IMG/VR virus record: IMGVR_UViG_3300030329_003238
Location: 1-32,342 of that record
Direction: 5' to 3' (one strand)
DNA: 32,342 nucleotides
From: a virus
This document shows positions 1 to 32,342 of the stretch, one piece after another. How positions within the stretch are numbered: the first letter of the stretch is position 1; each line of letters opens with the position of its first letter. A program made the position numbers and the translations under genes. Under the pieces are notes generated by a model. The model made no database searches. It had not been told where the DNA came from and worked only from the letters and a program-made list of their open reading frames with translations.

Positions 1-77
1 CTATCATCATTATTTAGCTCAGTATATCCAGCTACATCAATAGTTAAATTTCCACTACTTAAATCAATTTCTGTTCC
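1..77. repeat. 77-nt exact repeat, copy 1 (other copy 31696-31772)
   Basis: Bases 1-77 match 31696-31772 without a difference; the first mismatch is at 78 versus 31773. The offset is 31695, a multiple of three, so both copies encode the same fibre residues. Because the window begins exactly here, the repeat may be an assembly end-overlap or a true repeat within the fibre gene. Confidence 0.95.
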
Positions 78-3056
78 GTCTATTGTTATATTATCAACTA
101 CTACACCTGCATTTGCAGTTACAACTCCAGTAACTCCAAGCGTACTTGCCATATCTACAGCACCATCAATATCTACTACATCAAGATTGGCTGTTCCATC
201 CACATCTATTGCACCACTAATATCTAAGGAAGTTGCTTCAATTTCTCCACTTGCTTTCATTGTTACACCATCGCCACCAGCAACTCTAAAAATTATTTCA
301 TCATCTGTACTAAATTTTATTTGGTTATCTGCATCCCTACCAGTTACTAAACTTGCATTCAGCATTGATGTTACAGTTGTTTGAGTTGTTCCTAAAACAA
401 AGTCTAAGGTATTATCGCCATCTTCATAAGTAACCGCTATTCCAGTTTCAGTATTAGATCCGACCATCGCACCGACTGTATCTGCAATATATTCGTTTAG
501 AGCTGTTCCATCTACAGTATAAGCATCAGCCTCTAAAGTTCCATCTACATCTACATTGCCAGATATATCAAGTGATCCAAAAGCACCAACACCAGTTGTT
601 GTTATATTGCTTGAGCCAGTATCTATTGTTCCGAATCCACTTGTTATAGATCCTGAGTTCAAAGCTCCAGTAGTAACAATGTTTGAACCACCAACATTAT
701 GGCTTGAGAAATATGTTGAAACTGTATCAACATTGGTCATTCTCATTGTTCCGCCATCGTTGATTAAAATACCATCTCCAGACGCTACGGCAGTTGTGCC
801 TCTGGCTGTTCCGCCATCAATAAGATTTATTTCTTCTGGAGTTGCTGAGATCGCAGTTGTTGTAGCCGCTGCCAAGACTGGAATATATCCGCCTTGATTA
901 ACTAAATATTGAGTATGATCAGCAGTAGGATCTACTATGCTTAAAGTTGTTTCATTTGAATCAGCAGTTGCTCCTTCAAATACAATCGCATTTTGAGCAT
1001 TCATTGTTACAGTATCAACAGTTGTTGTAGTTCCAGCTACAGTAAGTTTTGGAACTAATAATTCACCTGTGCTTGGATTATATCTTAAAGCACCAGTATC
1101 ATCTAATAAGCCATTTGATTCATTATGAAATACGACTGGAAAATCTGTATTTGCTGAACTATCTGAAACAGTAACAGTAGTTGCTAAAGTTGCAGTATCA
1201 GCATTACCAGTTACCGCACCAGTTATTGGCCCAGCAAAAGCATCTGCTGTAACAGTTCCATCAAAAAATGCGTCTTTAAATTCATTATCTGATTTACCAA
1301 GATCAATAATATTATCTGAGCCAGGATATAAAGCCCCATCTTCAAGGATTAATTGTTTTTCATTCCCAGCATAAAAATTTATTTTATCAGCATCTTCAAA
1401 ATCTATTTTAGTTTGGTCGTCCTCACCGATCTTAATATCAGTTGCTAATAACGAGGTGATCCCAGTTTGTGCTGCATCTACTGAAAGATCAACTGTATTA
1501 TCACCATCTTGGAATGTTACAGTTATTCCGCTTTCGGTATTACTTGAGAACATTCCTCCAGCCTGGTCTGTAATATATTCAGCCAATGTCGTTCCATCAA
1601 CTGTGATTGCATCAGCTTCAAGTGTTCCATCAATATCGGCATTACCTGATATATCTAAACTTGCCCCATCAATTTCTCCAGTTACAGTAATTGAATCCAC
1701 ATAGGCATCTTTCCATCTTACCGAAGATGAGCCAAGATCCACATCGCTGTCTGATTGTGGGCCAAATATATTGTCGCCTAAATAAACCTGTTCAACATTG
1801 GCAGCATAGAAATGAATTTCATCTGCTGTTTCAAAGTCAATCTTCGTTTGATCGTCCTCACCTATTTTGATATCAGTAGCCAATAAAGATGTAATAGTTG
1901 TTTGGGCTGAACCCAAAACAAAATCTAAAGTATTATCACTATCTTCGTATGTAACTGCTACGCCTGTTTCAGTATTTGAACTAACCATGGCTCCCACAGT
2001 ATCAGCTATGTATTCATTTAAAGCGGTGCCATCTACTGTATAGGCATCGGCTTCCATAGTGCCGTCAATATCAGCATTACCACTAATATCTAAAGAGGCA
2101 AAAGTTCCTACACCTGTAGTTGTTAAATTTTCGTTCCCAAAACTTATTGTACCAGTAGAATCTACAATGCTTCCAGTTGAAATCGTCATAGTTCCGTCAA
2201 CCGAAAGTTGGTCAGATATTGTAGCATCATCAGTTGTAGTTAATTGTTCTGCTTGAATAGTCCCAGAGAACGTTCCGTTTACAGCACTTGATATTGACCC
2301 ACTTGCTATTGATAAAGTTCCGTCAGTAAATGTTCCGTCTATTGTTAAGCCATTCGCAGTTAAAGTATAATTCCCAATATCAACTGAATTTGCGACTGTT
2401 AAAGAAGTAATCGCATCTACTGTTCCCCCATCAATATCAGGTGTATTAATATCTGGGGCAGTTAAAGTTTTATTTGTTAAAGTATCTGTTGTGGCCCTAC
2501 CAACTGAAGTGTCAGTAGCATCTGGAATAGTCCAAGTTCTATCTGCAGTTGGGTCTGTAATTGCCAATGTAGTTTCATAAGCGTTATCAGTTGAGCCTTC
2601 AAAAATTAAATTTGTTGTAATTGTAGCATTCATTGCTACTGTATCAGCAGCCGCATCTCCTATCTGCGTATTTCCAGTTCCTGTGAAATTAGCTGCTTGG
2701 ATTGTTCCTGTAGCTGTTAAATTGCGAAGCCCTGTTAGATCTTTATTTGAATCAACCAGCAAAAATTTAGAAGCACTAACTGTACCAGCTGTGATTCCAT
2801 CTAATAAATTAAGTTCGGCAGCACTTGTGGTAACTAAAGTTCCTCCCAACTTCAAACCATTCGTACCATCGTGCGAAGCTACATCAAGATTGAATGAACC
2901 ATCTTTAATTACAAGCTCCGTTGTAGAAATCTCAAGGGGTGTGCCAGTTCCGTCTCCATCGTAAACACGAGTGGCAGATCCTCCAACTCCACCATCAATA
3001 TGTAATAATTGAACATATCCAGTAGAGACAGCTACGTTTGTTAAATCTGTTGCCAT
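1..3056 (-). CDS. tail fibre, N-terminal part (open at window start)
   Basis: The frame opens with ATG at 3056 (AGGA-containing leader just upstream) and stays open for 1018 codons to base 1 without a stop. The protein is low in aromatic residues and rich in Gly, Ser, Thr, Asp and Val. It is built from recurring modules: a unit reading LDISGN-x-D-x-DGT near 2030-2100, 1590-1665 and 505-575, and a unit containing LLATDIKIGEDDQTK near 1835-1890 and 1390-1450. Such beta-rich repeats are typical of trimeric phage fibres that contact the host. The sequence at 1-77 is identical, in the same frame, to 31696-31772, so the gene most likely continues into the ORF ending at 29547. Joined there, the protein would be about 1734 residues. 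It directly follows the major capsid gene, an unusual place for a fibre. Role as fibre is inferred from composition, repeats and the C-terminal chaperone. Confidence 0.85.
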   Translation of the reverse strand, partial: MATDLTNVAVSTGYVQLLHIDGGVGGSATRVYDGDGTGTPLEISTTELVIKDGSFNLDVASHDGTNGLKLGGTLVTTSAAELNLLDGITAGTVSASKFLLVDSNKDLTGLRNLTATGTIQAANFTGTGNTQIGDAAADTVAMNATITTNLIFEGSTDNAYETTLAITDPTADRTWTIPDATDTSVGRATTDTLTNKTLTAPDINTPDIDGGTVDAITSLTVANSVDIGNYTLTANGLTIDGTFTDGTLSIASGSISSAVNGTFSGTIQAEQLTTTDDATISDQLSVDGTMTISTGSIVDSTGTISFGNENLTTTGVGTFASLDISGNADIDGTMEADAYTVDGTALNEYIADTVGAMVSSNTETGVAVTYEDSDNTLDFVLGSAQTTITSLLATDIKIGEDDQTKIDFETADEIHFYAANVEQVYLGDNIFGPQSDSDVDLGSSSVRWKDAYVDSITVTGEIDGASLDISGNADIDGTLEADAITVDGTTLAEYITDQAGGMFSSNTESGITVTFQDGDNTVDLSVDAAQTGITSLLATDIKIGEDDQTKIDFEDADKINFYAGNEKQLILEDGALYPGSDNIIDLGKSDNEFKDAFFDGTVTADAFAGPITGAVTGNADTATLATTVTVSDSSANTDFPVVFHNESNGLLDDTGALRYNPSTGELLVPKLTVAGTTTTVDTVTMNAQNAIVFEGATADSNETTLSIVDPTADHTQYLVNQGGYIPVLAAATTTAISATPEEINLIDGGTARGTTAVASGDGILINDGGTMRMTNVDTVSTYFSSHNVGGSNIVTTGALNSGSITSGFGTIDTGSSNITTTGVGAFGSLDISGNVDVDGTLEADAYTVDGTALNEYIADTVGAMVGSNTETGIAVTYEDGDNTLDFVLGTTQTTVTSMLNASLVTGRDADNQIKFSTDDEIIFRVAGGDGVTMKASGEIEATSLDISGAIDVDGTANLDVVDIDGAVDMASTLGVTGVVTANAGVVVDNITIDGTEIDLSSGNLTIDVAGYTELNNDD
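532..641. repeat. 110-nt exact repeat, copy 1 (other copy 32233-32342)
   Basis: Bases 532-641 are identical to 32233-32342; the next base outward (531 versus 32232) differs. The offset of 31701 is a multiple of three, so the frame is preserved. It encodes the GSLDISGNVDVDGTLEADA part of a fibre module. Confidence 0.95.
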
Positions 3057-9632: not shown

Positions 9633-9932
9633 TTATAATACAGAATCTGCTAAAGCCTTGTCACTGCGTAATTTACAGCGTTTCCACGCCATCTTGACTG
9701 AACCTTCAGATTTATTTAATAATTTTGAGATCTCTTTAAATTTGCATTTTCTAATTTGGCGATGATAAAAGACTTTTTGCTCATATTCAGTCATAAAAAA
9801 AGCCATAGAGAAACCTAAATTTAAGAATTTAAGATTATCAATTGCTCTTTGCAATTTGTCTTGTATATAATATTCCTGTTCTTGATCTTCAGAATGTCCG
9901 CACATTGGGCAGGGGGTGTGGCTTGGTTCCAT
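9633..9932 (-). CDS. zinc/HTH regulator resembling sigma region 4
   Basis: 99 residues from ATG 9932, chosen over an upstream GTG at 9953 because CCAAAGGAAG lies at proper distance. The N-terminus has CPMCGH (Cys8, Cys11, His13), a possible metal site. Residues about 48-88 (MTEYEQKVFYHRQ, then FKEISKLLNKSEGSVKMAWKR) match the sigma-70 region 4 / ArpU-like helix-turn-helix, with the SEGSVK-x-x-W-x-R recognition helix. It sits between the modification cassette and the packaging genes, the usual place for a late-gene activator. The regulatory role is inferred. Confidence 0.6.
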   Translation of the reverse strand: MEPSHTPCPMCGHSEDQEQEYYIQDKLQRAIDNLKFLNLGFSMAFFMTEYEQKVFYHRQIRKCKFKEISKLLNKSEGSVKMAWKRCKLRSDKALADSVL

Positions 9933-9956
9933 TTTTACTTCCTTTGGCTTCACATA

Positions 9957-10589
9957 CTATCTTTTCCAAGAAGCAATAGTTTGCCAGTTTGCGTTGGTTA
10001 TTTTAGGTTGTTTTGTTAATTCCCATTCTTTAAAATGTGAAAATAATCTTGGGGCCTCCACATTCCTCCAAGCCTTTCTATTCAAATGCACTTCCATAAC
10101 AAATTCCTTTACAAATTTGGGAAGATCTTTGGTGATAAGATCATATTCCCCTCCTTCAATATCCATTTTAATTACGTCTGGCTTAATTCTATGCAATTCT
10201 TTTTTAAAATTAGCGGAAGGAACTTTTATCTTTTTTCTTCCTCTGCGTTTCACGGAACTCCCTATTCCTTTATTTGCCCCATTGCCTGGATAAAAATTTA
10301 TAGAATCTTTGTTTTCAAAAGATAAGGCCAACTGATAGCAATCTACATTAGAATAATTGCGAGTGTTCTCAGATAATAGTTGATAATTCTCAAGAATTGG
10401 CTCATAGCTATAAACATGTTTCGCACCTTGGTACAAGGCATAATATGTAAAAGCACCAAAACAGCCGCCAATATCCATCACTATTTTATTGCTATAATCT
10501 ATATGTCCATAGCTTCGTATTATTTCTTTGCATATATATTCATCCAGGGTGTCTTTTCTTAGTTTTAAATTTTTAAAAATTTTATTCAT
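9957..10589 (-). CDS. FkbM-family methyltransferase
   Basis: A 210-residue SAM-dependent methyltransferase. Motif I is VMDIGGCFGAFTYYAL (Asp39-Gly45), the acidic residue after strand 2 is in YSYEP (Glu63), and the family signature IKMDIEGGEYD is at 140-150. FkbM-type enzymes O-methylate sugars and other hydroxyls. Its ATG overlaps the glycosyltransferase stop (TAATG), making it the last gene of the cassette. A reasonable inference is methylation of the sugar added by the preceding enzyme; methylation of a protein or cell-surface sugar is an alternative. All core motifs are intact. Confidence 0.82.
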   Translation of the reverse strand: MNKIFKNLKLRKDTLDEYICKEIIRSYGHIDYSNKIVMDIGGCFGAFTYYALYQGAKHVYSYEPILENYQLLSENTRNYSNVDCYQLALSFENKDSINFYPGNGANKGIGSSVKRRGRKKIKVPSANFKKELHRIKPDVIKMDIEGGEYDLITKDLPKFVKEFVMEVHLNRKAWRNVEAPRLFSHFKEWELTKQPKITNANWQTIASWKR

Positions 10590-11368
10590 TAGAATAAGGC
10601 CTCCTGTTTTTTATTGCCAGAATTGTCTCGCAATCTTAATTCTGCATTTCCAGATGATTTTCTAATATACATTTTACAATATTCTGGAAACGTGTCTTGT
10701 ATTTTTTTTATTGATTTGTAAATATACTCTTTCGTTCTTATGGTTTGTAACCCACCTTCTTCTCTGAAAAATTTAGACTTAATTGTTATGTCGTCAAACC
10801 TTATTAAAATGCCATTTTTAATATATTGTCTTATGCTGTATTCGTAATCCTCCCCATGGTTCGTAATTCTATGTAAAAACGGATCGTGTTCAACTATGAT
10901 TCCAAATACCCCACCTGGGATATAACATAACTTTTCATAAATTCTATGTTTCATAAAATAAGCATTTGCAGCTGCATAAAGCCCAAATATGTTCGACTTT
11001 TTTTCAAGGCACAATTCAAAGCCTTTTATAATAAAATTATTTTCAAGATCTTGAATTGGATCTAAATCATCTTGATTTTTAACAAATACCCCATCAATGT
11101 CATCGTCAAACATTACCAGCTTTTCTCCTTCAGGGTAATAGTTTTCAATAAAATTTCTCTGCATACCGATTGTTGGAACTCCCTGTACTATGTTGTTTTC
11201 ATAAGGGGTATTCTTTAGAGATTCTTTGTATTTTAATTTTTCAATTTGGCTTGCAACAAAGATTTTAATTTTTTTAGGATCAATATTGTGTTTTTCCAAA
11301 AGGGGGAGTGTTTTTTCTTTGATCGTTTTTTCTCTTTTATATGATGGAATAGCTATTTGATAATTCAC
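10589..11368 (-). CDS. GT-A glycosyltransferase, probably TET/JBP-associated
   Basis: A 259-residue protein starting at GTG 11368 with a strong SD (GGAGGTTTT). The N-terminus has the nucleotide-binding entry IPSYKREKTI, followed by GMQRNFI (68-74), the metal-binding FDDDIDG (Asp88-Asp90, Asp92) and a later HGEDYEYSIR (171-180) with a candidate catalytic acid. This is a GT-A fold with an expanded DxD. It lies two genes behind a TET/JBP oxygenase; TET/JBP-associated glycosyltransferases (TAGT) are a described phage family thought to glycosylate the oxidised base. Family membership beyond GT-A is inferred from context and motif style. No signal peptide or membrane segment. Confidence 0.75.
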   Translation of the reverse strand: MNYQIAIPSYKREKTIKEKTLPLLEKHNIDPKKIKIFVASQIEKLKYKESLKNTPYENNIVQGVPTIGMQRNFIENYYPEGEKLVMFDDDIDGVFVKNQDDLDPIQDLENNFIIKGFELCLEKKSNIFGLYAAANAYFMKHRIYEKLCYIPGGVFGIIVEHDPFLHRITNHGEDYEYSIRQYIKNGILIRFDDITIKSKFFREEGGLQTIRTKEYIYKSIKKIQDTFPEYCKMYIRKSSGNAELRLRDNSGNKKQEALF

Positions 11369-11568
11369 AAAACCTCCAATTTGCTTTTATGCAATGTTAA
11401 TTCATGGCGATAACAACCAATTATTTGTTCTATTGTAATCATTTCTTTTTCAATTCCTATAACAACATAGCAAGGTTCGTTTTTAAATAAAACACCTGGT
11501 ATTTTCGGTATGACGAAACTTCCAATCTTTAACTCTTTTTTAATTAATTCCTGCAAATTCTTGAGCAA
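11365..11568 (-). CDS. 67-aa unknown protein within the modification cassette
   Basis: Starts at TTG 11568 (AAAGGCGAG upstream) inside the last 29 nt of the dioxygenase gene and ends overlapping the glycosyltransferase GTG (GTGA). Sequence: a helical start (NLQELIKKELKIGSFVIP), then a beta-rich part (CYVVIGIEKEMITIEQIIG) ending HELTLHKSKLEVL, perhaps a small SH3-like or OB-like barrel. No family recognised. The tight overlaps on both sides suggest it works with its neighbours. Confidence 0.6.
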   Translation of the reverse strand: MLKNLQELIKKELKIGSFVIPKIPGVLFKNEPCYVVIGIEKEMITIEQIIGCYRHELTLHKSKLEVL

Positions 11569-12445
11569 CTCGCCTTTGGTTCAGTTGATGTCTTTTCAAT
11601 TCTTCTGAAGGGCTTCCGCATTTCCACATATTTTCCCTATAATACATTACAAAAGACAATCTGACCGAATCCTCAGTTTTCTTTATTATTTCTGTATTGC
11701 CATGATATTGATGAACATCGGCCAATAACAAATCGCAAGTTCTTAGATCTACAGCAATTCTAAATCTTGGCAAAACAAATAAAACTGGCTCTATGTCTTT
11801 ACAATATGCAACTAAATTCCCAAACCCTTCAGAATAATCACCGTCATCAGTATGTACTGCTGTTCTCCAGTCCTTATTGACTGTCACTGTTGTGAAGGCA
11901 GTATCCTCTATAACAAAGTTTGGGTGCGTACCTTTTGCCATTCCTTTTTGTTTCCTGTATCTCTCTGGAACAAGATCTTGAAACCCTTTGTCAACCGCTT
12001 TTATCAATGGAATGGCTTTTTGAAATTCTTTTAAATTTTCTTTTGTAAACTTTGTTGTTCTGCAAAAATCATAATGTGCAGCACGATCAAAGTAACCAAC
12101 AATGCCGCTTTGTATATTTAGCTTTTTATTTGTTTCTTGATCATAAATATAATTCATTTTGCTTTTTTTACCTGACTTTAAAATGCCAACCCTTAATTCC
12201 CCACCGCTTGCAGCACCACGATTATTTGTCACTGCCGCTGCTTTTTCCAATGATTTGTATGCCTTTTTAATTACCTCATAATCAATATAATTTTTTCTAA
12301 AAAATAACAAAGGTTGGCCACTTTCTGTATAAACATCACAATCATAATCAATAACTTCGTCATAATGGTTTGAATCTACAAAAGTTCTTTCTAATTTTTT
12401 AGTTTCTTCATGGGTTAAATGGTATTTAGCTGTTAATCTCTTCAT
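11540..12445 (-). CDS. TET/JBP-type 2-oxoglutarate/Fe(II) dioxygenase
   Basis: A 301-residue protein. The catalytic core fits the Tet_JBP oxygenase family: WRTAVHTDDGD gives the H-x-D iron ligands (His198, Asp200), followed by GFGNLVAYCKD, a strand block VLFVLPRFRIAVDLRTCDLLLADVHQYHGN with the distal His (His245, or His248), and SVRLSFVMYYREN with Arg262 for 2-oxoglutarate. These enzymes hydroxylate the methyl group of 5-methylcytosine or thymine in DNA. Cys-rich DNA-binding inserts of animal TETs are absent, as in phage members. It is followed by a glycosyltransferase and a methyltransferase, as in known phage hypermodification clusters. The family call is firm; the base acted on is not known. 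Confidence 0.85.
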   Translation of the reverse strand: MKRLTAKYHLTHEETKKLERTFVDSNHYDEVIDYDCDVYTESGQPLLFFRKNYIDYEVIKKAYKSLEKAAAVTNNRGAASGGELRVGILKSGKKSKMNYIYDQETNKKLNIQSGIVGYFDRAAHYDFCRTTKFTKENLKEFQKAIPLIKAVDKGFQDLVPERYRKQKGMAKGTHPNFVIEDTAFTTVTVNKDWRTAVHTDDGDYSEGFGNLVAYCKDIEPVLFVLPRFRIAVDLRTCDLLLADVHQYHGNTEIIKKTEDSVRLSFVMYYRENMWKCGSPSEELKRHQLNQRRVAQEFAGIN

Positions 12446-12644
12446 GCTTTTCCTTTACAATTTTGAATATCAGGTCTGAATAATTATCAAGATCTGTTTG
12501 CAACAATATGCTTTCTAAAAGAATAATCAATTCTTTTTTCTTATTGTCTGCAAAAGCAAAAAAAATGTATTCTATTTCAGTTTGCTCTATTTCCCCAGTG
12601 TTCTCATCTGGAATGAGATCAAATAATGCTTCTTGCTCACCCAT
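12426..12644 (-). CDS. 72-aa acidic unknown protein
   Basis: Starts at ATG 12644 (TAATG overlap with the SSB-like gene) and runs 20 nt into the dioxygenase gene. The sequence MGEQEALFDLIPDENTGEIE followed by TEIEYIFFAFADNKKKELI looks like a conserved small phage family, but I cannot name it. Strongly acidic, helical C-terminal half. A partner role for the dioxygenase or the replication proteins is possible from position only. Confidence 0.6.
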   Translation of the reverse strand: MGEQEALFDLIPDENTGEIEQTEIEYIFFAFADNKKKELIILLESILLQTDLDNYSDLIFKIVKEKHEEINS

Positions 12645-29333: not shown

Positions 29334-29550
29334 TATTATTTCTCTGGTTATTAAACGTATCTTGCTGAGGAAGATCCTCTATTGGATACGGATCATTAAT
29401 TTCAAGATCTACAGAATCACTTGGAGCATAATAAACTGGGATTCCCAATTTCTGTTCTATCTTCTTCACAGTAGGCTCAAGAGTGCCTCTTGCATCTGCA
29501 ATCAAAATAAGAAGGCTTACAGCAACATGAACTTTGAACCAAATCGTCAT
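29317..29550 (-). CDS. 77-aa small protein with hydrophobic N-terminus
   Basis: ATG 29550 overlaps the fibre stop (ATGA). Residues 3-22 (IWFKVHVAVSLLILIADA) form a short membrane or signal segment, followed by a Pro- and Asn-rich acidic tail (YYAPSDSVDLEINDPYPIED). No family recognised. First of the small membrane gene cluster. Confidence 0.55.
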   Translation of the reverse strand: MTIWFKVHVAVSLLILIADARGTLEPTVKKIEQKLGIPVYYAPSDSVDLEINDPYPIEDLPQQDTFNNQRNNNESNS

Positions 29551-32342
29551 TTATTTTCCAACGCTTCAATTCTTGACTTTAAGTCATTATTCTCTGCTGA
29601 TAATTCTTGAACTGCTTTAATCAATACTGGAACAAGTCTTTCTCTTGAAACAGTCATAGGTGCTATTTCTTCTGTACCATCTTCCAATGTTCTCATAGCA
29701 TCTGGTTGACCAGTAACAGCAGGTGCAAACACTTCAGCAAGTTCATTTGCTATAAACCCAGCACTACAAGCAATACCACTTTTTTTCCAATCAAAGTCTC
29801 TAACTTTCATAGCGTTAACTGTTTCCAACCCATTTATAGCAGTATCAACTACATTTTCTTTCAGCCTTATATCTGAAGCATCTGTTAATTGAAAAGTACC
29901 TGAGACGTTACTTAATGTTCCTGCGTTTTGACCATCGCCATCATCACACTCTAAAAATACAGTAGTTCCTGATTGGTCATCAGCTCCACATTGTATAGTA
30001 ACTCCACCATAATCAGCGTCATTTCCATCATTAAAAAACTTAGATATTCTTGAAGAACCTCCACCTGTACTTGTTTTTTGAGCATGAACGTACTTACATA
30101 AAACACTGGCTTGCCTTTCATCACCACATATAATATCCTCAACATCACCATTTCCAAGAATTACTTTGTTATCTCCAGTTCCCTGAGCTCCATATCCAAT
30201 AACTGTTTGGTTGATTGCTCCACCTGCACTTGGGTCAGTTTCAGCTCCTATACATGTATTTTTATCGCCATCAACTACCGCATCTCCAGCTCTCCACCCT
30301 ACAGCTACATTATAATTAGCCCCATCTAATGAATTTTCTAATGATTCACTTCCAACTCCTGTATTATAACTGGATGCTGTTGAGCCTGACCAAGTACCAC
30401 CACCACTATTCCATCCTAAAAAGGTATTATGTGATGAATCTTGAATATTACTATGAGCATTGGTGTCTTGCATAGTTTTAGCACCAAGAGTGGTATTGTA
30501 ATCTCCAGTTGTATGAAGTCTTTGAGAATGAAATCCAATGGCAACATTTTCATTAGCTGAAGTAAATGATTTACCTGATTCAGAGCCAATTACTACATTA
30601 CTTTGACCAGTTATAGTTGCTTCTCCACCTGCTAAATATCCAATATAAACACTATTTATATGAGTTGTTCCTAATCTTCCAGCTTGAAATCCTACTGCTG
30701 TATTAAAAACTGACGCTGTAGTGCCATTGGCTTGCTGTTGCAATGCTTGGTATCCAATAGCTGTGCAGTTATTAGCATCAGTTTCTGTTGATAAAGCATG
30801 TTGACCTATAGCTACATTACCACCTCCAGTTGTTAAAGAAGTAAGAGCTTGATAGCCAATAGCAATAGTTCCATCAGCTCCTGAAGTCAAATCAGCACCA
30901 CAAGCATCAGAACCAATTACTATAGCATTATCAACATCTGTCGTTTTATCTCCTGATTGATGACCTAAGAAAACATTTCCAGTACCAGTTGTAAGGTCAT
31001 TCCCAGCGTTGTACCCAATTATAGTATTTTCATCTCCTGTAGTTAAAGCACTAAGGGCTTCATAACCAATCCCTACATTTTTAACAGCATCATTCATTGC
31101 AGCATCAGATACAGCTTCACCTATAAATGTATTATAATTAGAACCAGCATCTAAACTTGCACCAGCAGATTTTCCAAAGATAGTATTTGAAGTTCCACTA
31201 TCATTATTTGAAAGGCTTATCTTTGAATTTGAATCAAGAACAATTTTCGCTGAACCACCTGCCCATATTTGCATTCTATTATTATCGTCATGATGGTCAT
31301 AAAGGATTCTACCTTTAACACCTGAGCCTTCACCTTCTTCTCTAAAGTCAATATATGTAGCAGAATCTGTATTACAAATAATAGAGATTCCTGCTTCGCC
31401 TGATGTGTTTCCAACTACAAGGTCATTTGCCCCACTATCGGCAGTAACTCCTGTTACTGACCCTCCACATTCTAACTGACCTGAAAAGTTGCCACTTGTA
31501 GCTGTAATTCCACTATTGAATGTCGCATAGCCAGCATCAGATATATCAAGAGTTAGTGCTGTTATTGTAGAACCACCATCGTTACCCTTAAATACTAAAT
31601 CTTTGTCTTGGACACCTGCCCTAAGTACAAAGTCAGATGAGGCATGCTCTATTACACCAAATTGAACAGAGGCGTCAGAAAATACAACTATACCACTATC
31701 ATCATTATTTAGCTCAGTATATCCAGCTACATCAATAGTTAAATTTCCACTACTTAAATCAATTTCTGTTCCATCTATGGTAATGTTATCAATAGTTACT
31801 CCCGCATCAGCATCAACAACACCACTAAATGTTCCAGTCGTTCCAGAAATGGCACCTGTACTTGTTACGGAATCAACATACGCATCTTTCCATCTGACAG
31901 AATTTGAACCGAGATCTACATCGCTATCTGTTTGTGGGCCAAATACGCCATCTGCTACATAAACTTGTTCTGCGTTAGCAGCGTAGAAGTGAATCTCGTC
32001 TGCTGTTTCAAAGTCAATCTTTGTCTGATCATCTTCGCCAATCTTTATATCAGTAGCAAGTAAGGAAGTAATGCCAGTTTGAGCAGCATCTACTGCAAAA
32101 TCTATATTATCATTCGTTGTATCGTAGGTAACAGTAATTCCACTTTCAGTATTACTACTGATCATATTCGTTCCGACTGTATCTCTAATATATGTGGCTA
32201 ACGCTACGCTATCTACTGTTATTGCATCAGCTTCTAAAGTTCCATCTACATCTACATTGCCAGATATATCAAGTGATCCAAAAGCACCAACACCAGTTGT
32301 TGTTATATTGCTTGAGCCAGTATCTATTGTTCCGAATCCACT
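29547..32342 (-). CDS. tail fibre, C-terminal part with S74 chaperone (open at window end)
   Basis: The frame is open from base 32342, so an internal Met at 32165 is not the true start. The first part repeats the module seen at 1-3056. From about 31200 to 30140 come many short repeats of the kind N-x-x-I/V-G-x-x-A/S-G, resembling YadA-like trimeric head repeats. The last 109 residues begin with SDIRLKENV (Ser at 29876-29874) and match the Peptidase_S74 intramolecular chaperone seen at the end of many phage fibres. In that family the chaperone drives trimer folding and cuts itself off just before this Ser. A coiled-coil-like end (LSAENNDLKSRIEALENK) closes the protein. The stop overlaps the next gene by ATGA. 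The relation to the 5' part is inferred from the shared repeats and the common frame. Confidence 0.9.
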   Translation of the reverse strand, partial: SGFGTIDTGSSNITTTGVGAFGSLDISGNVDVDGTLEADAITVDSVALATYIRDTVGTNMISSNTESGITVTYDTTNDNIDFAVDAAQTGITSLLATDIKIGEDDQTKIDFETADEIHFYAANAEQVYVADGVFGPQTDSDVDLGSNSVRWKDAYVDSVTSTGAISGTTGTFSGVVDADAGVTIDNITIDGTEIDLSSGNLTIDVAGYTELNNDDSGIVVFSDASVQFGVIEHASSDFVLRAGVQDKDLVFKGNDGGSTITALTLDISDAGYATFNSGITATSGNFSGQLECGGSVTGVTADSGANDLVVGNTSGEAGISIICNTDSATYIDFREEGEGSGVKGRILYDHHDDNNRMQIWAGGSAKIVLDSNSKISLSNNDSGTSNTIFGKSAGASLDAGSNYNTFIGEAVSDAAMNDAVKNVGIGYEALSALTTGDENTIIGYNAGNDLTTGTGNVFLGHQSGDKTTDVDNAIVIGSDACGADLTSGADGTIAIGYQALTSLTTGGGNVAIGQHALSTETDANNCTAIGYQALQQQANGTTASVFNTAVGFQAGRLGTTHINSVYIGYLAGGEATITGQSNVVIGSESGKSFTSANENVAIGFHSQRLHTTGDYNTTLGAKTMQDTNAHSNIQDSSHNTFLGWNSGGGTWSGSTASSYNTGVGSESLENSLDGANYNVAVGWRAGDAVVDGDKNTCIGAETDPSAGGAINQTVIGYGAQGTGDNKVILGNGDVEDIICGDERQASVLCKYVHAQKTSTGGGSSRISKFFNDGNDADYGGVTIQCGADDQSGTTVFLECDDGDGQNAGTLSNVSGTFQLTDASDIRLKENVVDTAINGLETVNAMKVRDFDWKKSGIACSAGFIANELAEVFAPAVTGQPDAMRTLEDGTEEIAPMTVSRERLVPVLIKAVQELSAENNDLKSRIEALENK
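31696..31772. repeat. 77-nt exact repeat, copy 2 (other copy 1-77)
   Basis: Same sequence and same reading frame as bases 1-77. Downstream in the gene (lower coordinates) lies the unique head-repeat and chaperone part of the fibre, which should also follow base 1 if the molecule is circular. Confidence 0.95.
32233..32342. repeat. 110-nt exact repeat, copy 2 (other copy 532-641)
   Basis: The window ends inside this repeat. Together with the 77-nt repeat it brackets two different sequences of similar size (78-531, 454 nt; 31773-32232, 460 nt). Confidence 0.95.

Follow-up and report, generated by a model that had tools for sequence, protein, structure and literature searches.

Phage TET clusters, as reported by Burke et al. 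(2021, cited in PMC12730594), combine a Tet_JBP dioxygenase with GT-A glycosyltransferases of the TET-associated (TAGT) family in a compact operon, together with a C5-methyltransferase. Here, we describe a cassette with the same two kinds of enzymes on a 32,342 nt stretch of viral DNA (IMG/VR record IMGVR_UViG_3300030329_003238, positions 1-32342; referred to as the window), the source of which is a small marine-type phage. In contrast to those clusters as reported, the cassette ends with a gene for an FkbM-family methyltransferase, and the window contains no C5-methyltransferase. We conclude that the cassette probably encodes a post-replicative DNA hypermodification pathway leading from TET through TAGT to FkbM. 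While the operon of TET and TAGT is of an already known type, the new element is FkbM, a tailoring enzyme that recurs in such pathways and would act late in them.

Should the substrate be thymine, the logic of the cassette is that of kinetoplastid base J (JBP1/2 and the J glucosyltransferase), in which thymine is hydroxylated within DNA and then glycosylated, but the glycosyltransferase there belongs to a different family and the window adds a methyltransferase. In T-even phages, a TAGT-family enzyme places a sugar on hydroxymethylated DNA, as we propose for the window; these TAGT homologues act on glucosyl-5-hydroxymethylcytosine (glucosyl-5hmC; PMC13216743). However, 5hmC of T-even phages is made as a nucleotide and TAGT is their second glycosyltransferase, whereas in the window TET would form the hydroxymethyl group in situ, and the first glycosyltransferase would be TAGT. 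The thymidine hypermodification of phages M6, ViI and phiW-14, which uses a 5-hydroxymethyldeoxyuridine (5hmdU) DNA kinase and an amino acid:DNA transferase, resembles a module found in sister phages (P-loop kinase and ADDT, PF18724), but the window has TAGT and FkbM in place of that branch and no dUMP hydroxymethylase. Among cultured phages with a homologous TET operon, Nonlabens phage P12024L has the order TET-TAGT-N6/N4 methylase, Pelagibacter phage HTVC112P TET-FkbM and cyanophage MED4-117 FkbM-TET, but none has the combination TET-TAGT-FkbM. P12024L_28, annotated as a DNA methyltransferase and by its position a candidate FkbM partner, was rejected as it is the N6/N4 methylase; CPWG_00024 of MED4-117, annotated as a DNA methylase, was rejected as it is a ParB_N protein. 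In HTVC112P and MED4-117, which are unrelated to each other, a ParB_N-domain protein is encoded immediately before the TET/FkbM genes (L037 4375-5004 and L125 3219-3860; L numbers denote the loci of related viral contigs compared here, W the window's own locus).

In the proposed pathway, TET would act on a pyrimidine that is already part of the phage DNA and hydroxylate its 5-methyl group, giving a 5-hydroxymethylpyrimidine. TAGT would then put a sugar on the new hydroxyl, and FkbM would O-methylate the attached sugar as a cap, a step for which the gene linkage is recurrent and the acceptor is a prediction. The part downstream of TET would be an exchangeable module, with other TAGTs or a kinase-ADDT branch standing behind the same TET. 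The modification would likely protect the phage DNA from host nucleases, and also from glycosylases or Type IV enzymes whose targets are hydroxymethyl bases that are either bare or no more than glycosylated. The enzyme identities and the assignment to DNA hypermodification, both put forward in an earlier sequence-only reading of this stretch, have good support from the protein families, the predicted folds and the repeated linkage of the genes.

Judged by family, modelled fold and catalytic residues, the 301-amino-acid (aa) protein is a Tet_JBP dioxygenase, for which the family suggests hydroxylation of 5-methylpyrimidines. A Pfam search assigned it to Tet_JBP (PF12851; 5.2e-18, 65.2 bits against a gathering score of 34.9), and among the PHROGs it matched phrog_24024 at 1.9e-80, a family annotated as function unknown. 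No relatives were found using a sequence search of the PDB and a profile search recovered TET2 only weakly, so that a fold comparison was needed. The AlphaFold2 model, built with 34 related sequences (predicted local distance difference test, pLDDT, 94.2), contains the double-stranded beta-helix of TET type; its best Foldseek matches are NgTet1, CcTet and human TET2, and the structure 4lt5 is matched at 7e-12. Using VIA-align 2, the model reached a Z score of 21.5 with TET2 (3.6 Å over 266 residues), 19.5 with NgTet1, 18.7 with CMD1 and approximately 18 with CcTet, while AlkB-type proteins were down at 14. The residues picked out in the sequence-only reading, H198 and D200 (HxD), H248 and R262, turned out to be invariant across 138 aligned TET relatives, with one fragment gapped at H198/D200; the first three form the iron triad and R262 is the 2-oxoglutarate arginine of TET. 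TET genes are mislabelled as SNF2 DNA repair protein, DnaJ or queuine tRNA-ribosyltransferase in JF974321/NC_020857, MN698246 and KU682439.

Close relatives, whose TET is 57-73% identical, share the same kind of terminase and portal and mostly a sigma-like gene. They keep TET and a 72-aa open reading frame (ORF), but the genes that follow vary until either the sigma-like gene or the terminase is reached. The sigma-like gene forms the downstream border of this variable slot and is found at the same place regardless of slot content. In the window, the slot holds the genes for a 67-aa protein, TAGT and FkbM; in L004, L005 and L008, the 67-aa protein is accompanied by a TAGT of another type, which in L004 is 22% identical, and in L009 by a TAGT which is 85% identical though TET is only 63% identical. 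Two TAGTs occupy the slot of L010, and L002, L006, L007, L011-L014 and L016 carry a P-loop kinase, in most cases alongside an ADDT/aGPT-Pplase-like protein. Since the same TET is followed by differing partners, we conclude that the contents of the slot are swapped as modules. The kinase of the sister phages is not visible from the window alone; it matches Ploopntkinase3 only near the cut-off, and ADDT was called in two representatives with PF18724 at 6e-18 and 2e-17. Among 75 loci found by TET queries alone and covering at least 2.5 kb downstream, TET is adjoined by TAGT, kinase/ADDT or FkbM in 74 (53 kinase/ADDT, 19 TAGT, one both, one FkbM), and one has none of these.

Further genes accompany some of these cassettes. 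A GATase_6-like glutamine amidotransferase lies between TET and ADDT in L019, L045, L050 and many kinase-type cassettes, which suggests that the kinase branch involves a donor of an amide or amine. A second glycosyltransferase (Gly_transf_sug, PF04488) abuts TAGT_B behind TET (L015 8906-10347, L098 4536-5943), a pairing which suggests a disaccharide modification. In L007 (5573-7155), which has the kinase/ADDT module, a short C5-methyltransferase and a gene similar to pyridoxal-phosphate-dependent enzymes are inserted upstream of TET; the latter gene stands alone at the same place in L002.

As to the base, we lean towards thymine, which would make the product a phage analogue of base J. Neither a C5-methyltransferase nor a thymidylate-synthase-like hydroxymethylase had been seen in the window by the sequence-only reading, and both absences hold. 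Beyond the window, 25 of 29 TET contigs of at least 27 kb are without any C5-methyltransferase match (of the other four, three match above the cut-off and one weakly below it), and the contigs without one include the cultured phages P12024L, HTVC112P and MED4-117. Thymine is favored because of these contigs, because the window has no hydroxymethylase and because kinase/ADDT is a frequent partner of TET. ADDT is an enzyme of thymidine hypermodification, i.e., of the 5hmdU pathway. The kinase is of a type known from 5hmdU pathways, and glucosylated 5hmdU was unreported in phages according to a 2019 paper (PMC6449724).

A serious contender, if somewhat short of probable, is a cytosine route, in which TET would act on 5-methylcytosine (5mC) from the host or an unrecognized phage enzyme to give 5hmC, then glycosyl-5hmC and finally an O-methylated sugar. 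Two observations count against thymine here. D203 and R270 align with D234 of NgTet1 and R393 of CcTet, and the residues of NgTet1, CMD1 and CcTet at these positions contact N4 and O2 of 5mC (PMC11040006, PMC7854593). In addition, a C5-methyltransferase is encoded by some relatives with either module type (L007, L061, L071, L091 and L107), in several of them near TET. The cytosine route is also favored by the action of TAGT homologues on glucosyl-5hmC in T-even phages and by the Melnitz phages, in which a distant TET is accompanied by an M.HhaI-like enzyme and a kinase. The phage TETs assayed to date are reportedly 5mC dioxygenases (Burke 2021, cited in PMC12730594). However, host methylation would supply only few sites, and the lack of a C5-methyltransferase in the window and in most of the long TET contigs speaks against cytosine.

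Three sequence features were considered as pointers to the base. Residues 203 and 270, placed by motif spacing and alignment, were rejected as discriminators between thymine and 5mC, as nearly all TETs have D and R whatever their neighbors, with and without a C5-methyltransferase. Palindrome avoidance was likewise rejected, since sites consisting only of G and C are depleted in many TET phages and the signal is confounded by base composition and CpG depletion. At the Asn/Asp position of the hydroxymethylases (dUMP versus dCMP), Asp is found in L127 and L138 and a shifted GAN motif in most others; consequently, these mixed states imply no single base.

The 259-aa protein is a TAGT by Pfam (PF20691; 1.5e-12, 48.4 bits against a gathering score of 27.5). 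It matches phrog_25200 at 4e-37 and, more weakly, the T-even beta-glucosyl-HMC-alpha-glucosyltransferase family phrog_842 at 6e-14, while no relatives were found in a PDB sequence search. The stretches FDDDIDG and HGEDYE, read beforehand as GT-A motifs, are conserved within the TAGT family: D88-D90 (DxD, metal-binding) and E173-D174 (catalytic acidic) are nearly invariant in 13 sequences. By analogy with the family, the protein would be a DNA glycosyltransferase, and its sugar is predicted on the same grounds. Many phages have solitary TAGTs, whose role a 2026 paper calls undefined (PMC13216743).

Between TET and TAGT lies the gene for the 67-aa protein, which has no match in Pfam, PHROG or NCBIfam and is possibly an accessory of the TET-TAGT step. 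A more specific role, namely that of a dedicated DNA-binding or coupling subunit passing the oxidized base from TET to TAGT, can be put forward only tentatively. Wherever the protein is present, it sits between TET and TAGT, and its homologues (68-86% identical; L003-L005, L008 and L009) are conserved with either TAGT type. However, most other TET-TAGT loci do without it, and the searches named above gave no fold or family for it.

The third enzyme, the 210-aa protein, was recognized as FkbM from its motifs alone, and the profile searches agree (Methyltransf_21, PF05050, 1e-11, 45.7 bits against a Pfam cut-off of 22.7; NCBIfam fkbM_fam, TIGR01444, 2.6e-17, 63.6 against 37.7). The profile scores of all three enzymes lie well above what chance would give. 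Its KMDIEG is conserved among FkbMs, and K141, D143, E145, G146 and E148 of the pattern K-x-D-x-E-G-x-E are invariant in 27 sequences. The AlphaFold2 model (pLDDT 93.3) has the class I methyltransferase fold binding S-adenosylmethionine (SAM) but no specific PDB match; a PDB sequence search gave weak generic methyltransferase matches only.

A single-sequence search of viral contigs with the window's FkbM found no match, but a search with an alignment of phage FkbM lineages yielded 80 FkbM loci. All ten FkbMs closest to that of the window have a source of 5-hydroxymethylpyrimidine as a neighbor (TET in six cases, a thymidylate-synthase-like protein in four), and nine of the ten also have a TAGT. 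Such neighbors thin out with rank; at ranks 41-60, only six of 20 loci have any. The gene order is TET-TAGT(A)-FkbM in L128, TET-TAGT(B)-FkbM in L129-L132 and TET-FkbM-TAGT(A) in L133, so that the three genes occur in differing orders across W, L128 and L133. The loci L134, L135, L137, L138, L159 and L164 contain no TET; they hold a thymidylate-synthase-like protein together with FkbM and TAGT(B). We place FkbM downstream of the 5-hydroxymethylpyrimidine because this base is the factor shared by TET and synthase-type loci.

In a tree calculated with IQ-TREE, whose deeper joins are uncertain due to long branches, the window's FkbM falls outside the marked clade of L128-L133 and pairs weakly (88/87) with the FkbM of ctIqW946, a phage that encodes a pyrimidine hydroxymethylase and no TET. 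The label TET+TAGT requires at least two changes on this tree; thus, the combination of TET, TAGT and FkbM formed more than once. A second marked clade (100/97) comprises HTVC112P, MED4-117 and their relatives, in which FkbM abuts TET. Neither a TAGT nor a GT2 glycosyltransferase was found in the genomes searched of HTVC112P-like and MED4-117-like phages, and the FkbM motifs of this clade differ from those of the window-side group.

The placement of the methyltransferase within the pathway, as proposed from the sequence, thus gains from its recurrence with TET/TAGT and hydroxymethylase/TAGT in other phages; that it acts on the sugar rather than on the hydroxymethyl group is what we infer for the window, where this is favored because a TAGT is present. 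Three observations weigh against the pathway as a whole: FkbM follows TET without TAGT in the HTVC112P and MED4-117 group, so that its acceptor need not be a sugar; among the close relatives only the window has FkbM; and CTAG, GCGC, CCGG and CGCG are absent from the window (1-32342). The first of these leads to an alternative which we regard as rather unlikely for the window, in which FkbM would methylate the 5-hydroxymethyl group itself to 5-methoxymethylpyrimidine, in parallel to glycosylation at other sites. The TAGT-less clade speaks for it, and for that clade such direct capping is the reading to be favored; the window's FkbM, however, stands in another part of the tree, has TAGT beside nearly all of its nearest relatives and differs in its motifs. 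A further alternative, in which the target of TAGT and FkbM would be a surface polysaccharide or other glycan and the two would adjoin TET by chance or for regulation, is very improbable. In its favor, many members of both families act on polysaccharides and natural products, and 43 of 93 phage FkbM loci are without any tested neighbor. Against it, the genes overlap translationally, their association recurs in separate lineages with TET or hydroxymethylase as the common factor, and PF20691 is defined on TET-associated and T-even DNA glycosyltransferases.

Returning to sugar methylation, the product in the window might, although we consider this doubtful, be an O-methylated glycosyl-5-hydroxymethyluracil, i.e., a sugar-capped base-J analogue made in situ by TET, with 5-methoxymethylpyrimidines formed by the other FkbM clade in related phages. 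Neither compound is described in the literature searched.

Restriction evasion by the predicted modification is plausible. Besides the four palindromes missing from the window, TCGA and CATG are strongly depleted compared to the Markov expectation from trinucleotides, which suggests host restriction pressure despite the modification genes. Since four palindromes are absent, protection is probably not complete. A search for the host in bacterial genomes led to seven scattered metagenome bins and to no host.

As had been read from the sequence, the four genes at 9957-12445 are consecutive on the minus strand and overlap or abut, with overlaps of 29, 4 and 1 bases; TET and the upstream 72-aa ORF overlap by 20 bases. 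The coordinates are listed in Table 1. No Rfam families or tRNAs were detected in the window. Both ends of the window (3-3056 and 29547-32342) lie inside long repeat-rich ORFs of one kind, which have the stretch SGFGTIDTGSSNITTTGVGAFGSLDISGNVDVDGTLEADA in common, and the two end frames are not directly joinable. Because both ends are of this kind, the contig may be a genome broken within repeats.

Table 1. Genes of the cassette and its borders in the window.
Feature	Coordinates	Strand	Remarks
Tet_JBP 2-oxoglutarate/Fe(II) dioxygenase, 301 aa	11540..12445	-	Predicted 5-methylpyrimidine hydroxylase in DNA
Conserved small protein, 67 aa	11365..11568	-	TTG start as listed, uncertain
TAGT, A-type, GT-A glycosyltransferase, 259 aa	10589..11368	-	GTG start; predicted sugar transfer to hydroxymethyl
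FkbM-family SAM methyltransferase, 210 aa	9957..10589	-	Proposed terminal sugar O-methylation
72-aa ORF overlapping the TET start	12426..12644	-	Homologues directly upstream of TET in close relatives
Sigma-70 region-4-like protein, zinc-finger-like CxxC	9633..9953	-	Sigma70_r4_2 5e-5, below cut-off

Our contribution consists of the modular slot, of the partnership in which FkbM recurs with two sources of hydroxymethyl and both TAGT types, and of cultured phages identified as suitable for tests. The literature searched, outside which Iyer 2013 and Burke 2021 lie, contained no paper that connects FkbM with the modification of phage DNA; as an earlier notice in these two is possible, we call the FkbM link a variant rather than categorically new. 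Most phage TET operons have so far been read as cytosine chemistry. There is, however, a large group of TETs, including those of three cultured phages, which is without a C5-methyltransferase yet equipped with interchangeable tailoring modules. With thymine as the substrate, these phages would be making base-J-like DNA in situ; with cytosine, their methyltransferase would have to be borrowed or hidden. Either outcome would answer an open question and provide enzymes for tagging DNA, and P12024L, HTVC112P and MED4-117 are directly testable relatives of each part of the cassette. The FkbM step, if true, would be a general capping reaction used with two sources of hydroxymethylpyrimidine and two TAGT types, which could overcome defences based on DNA glycosylases and Type IV enzymes.

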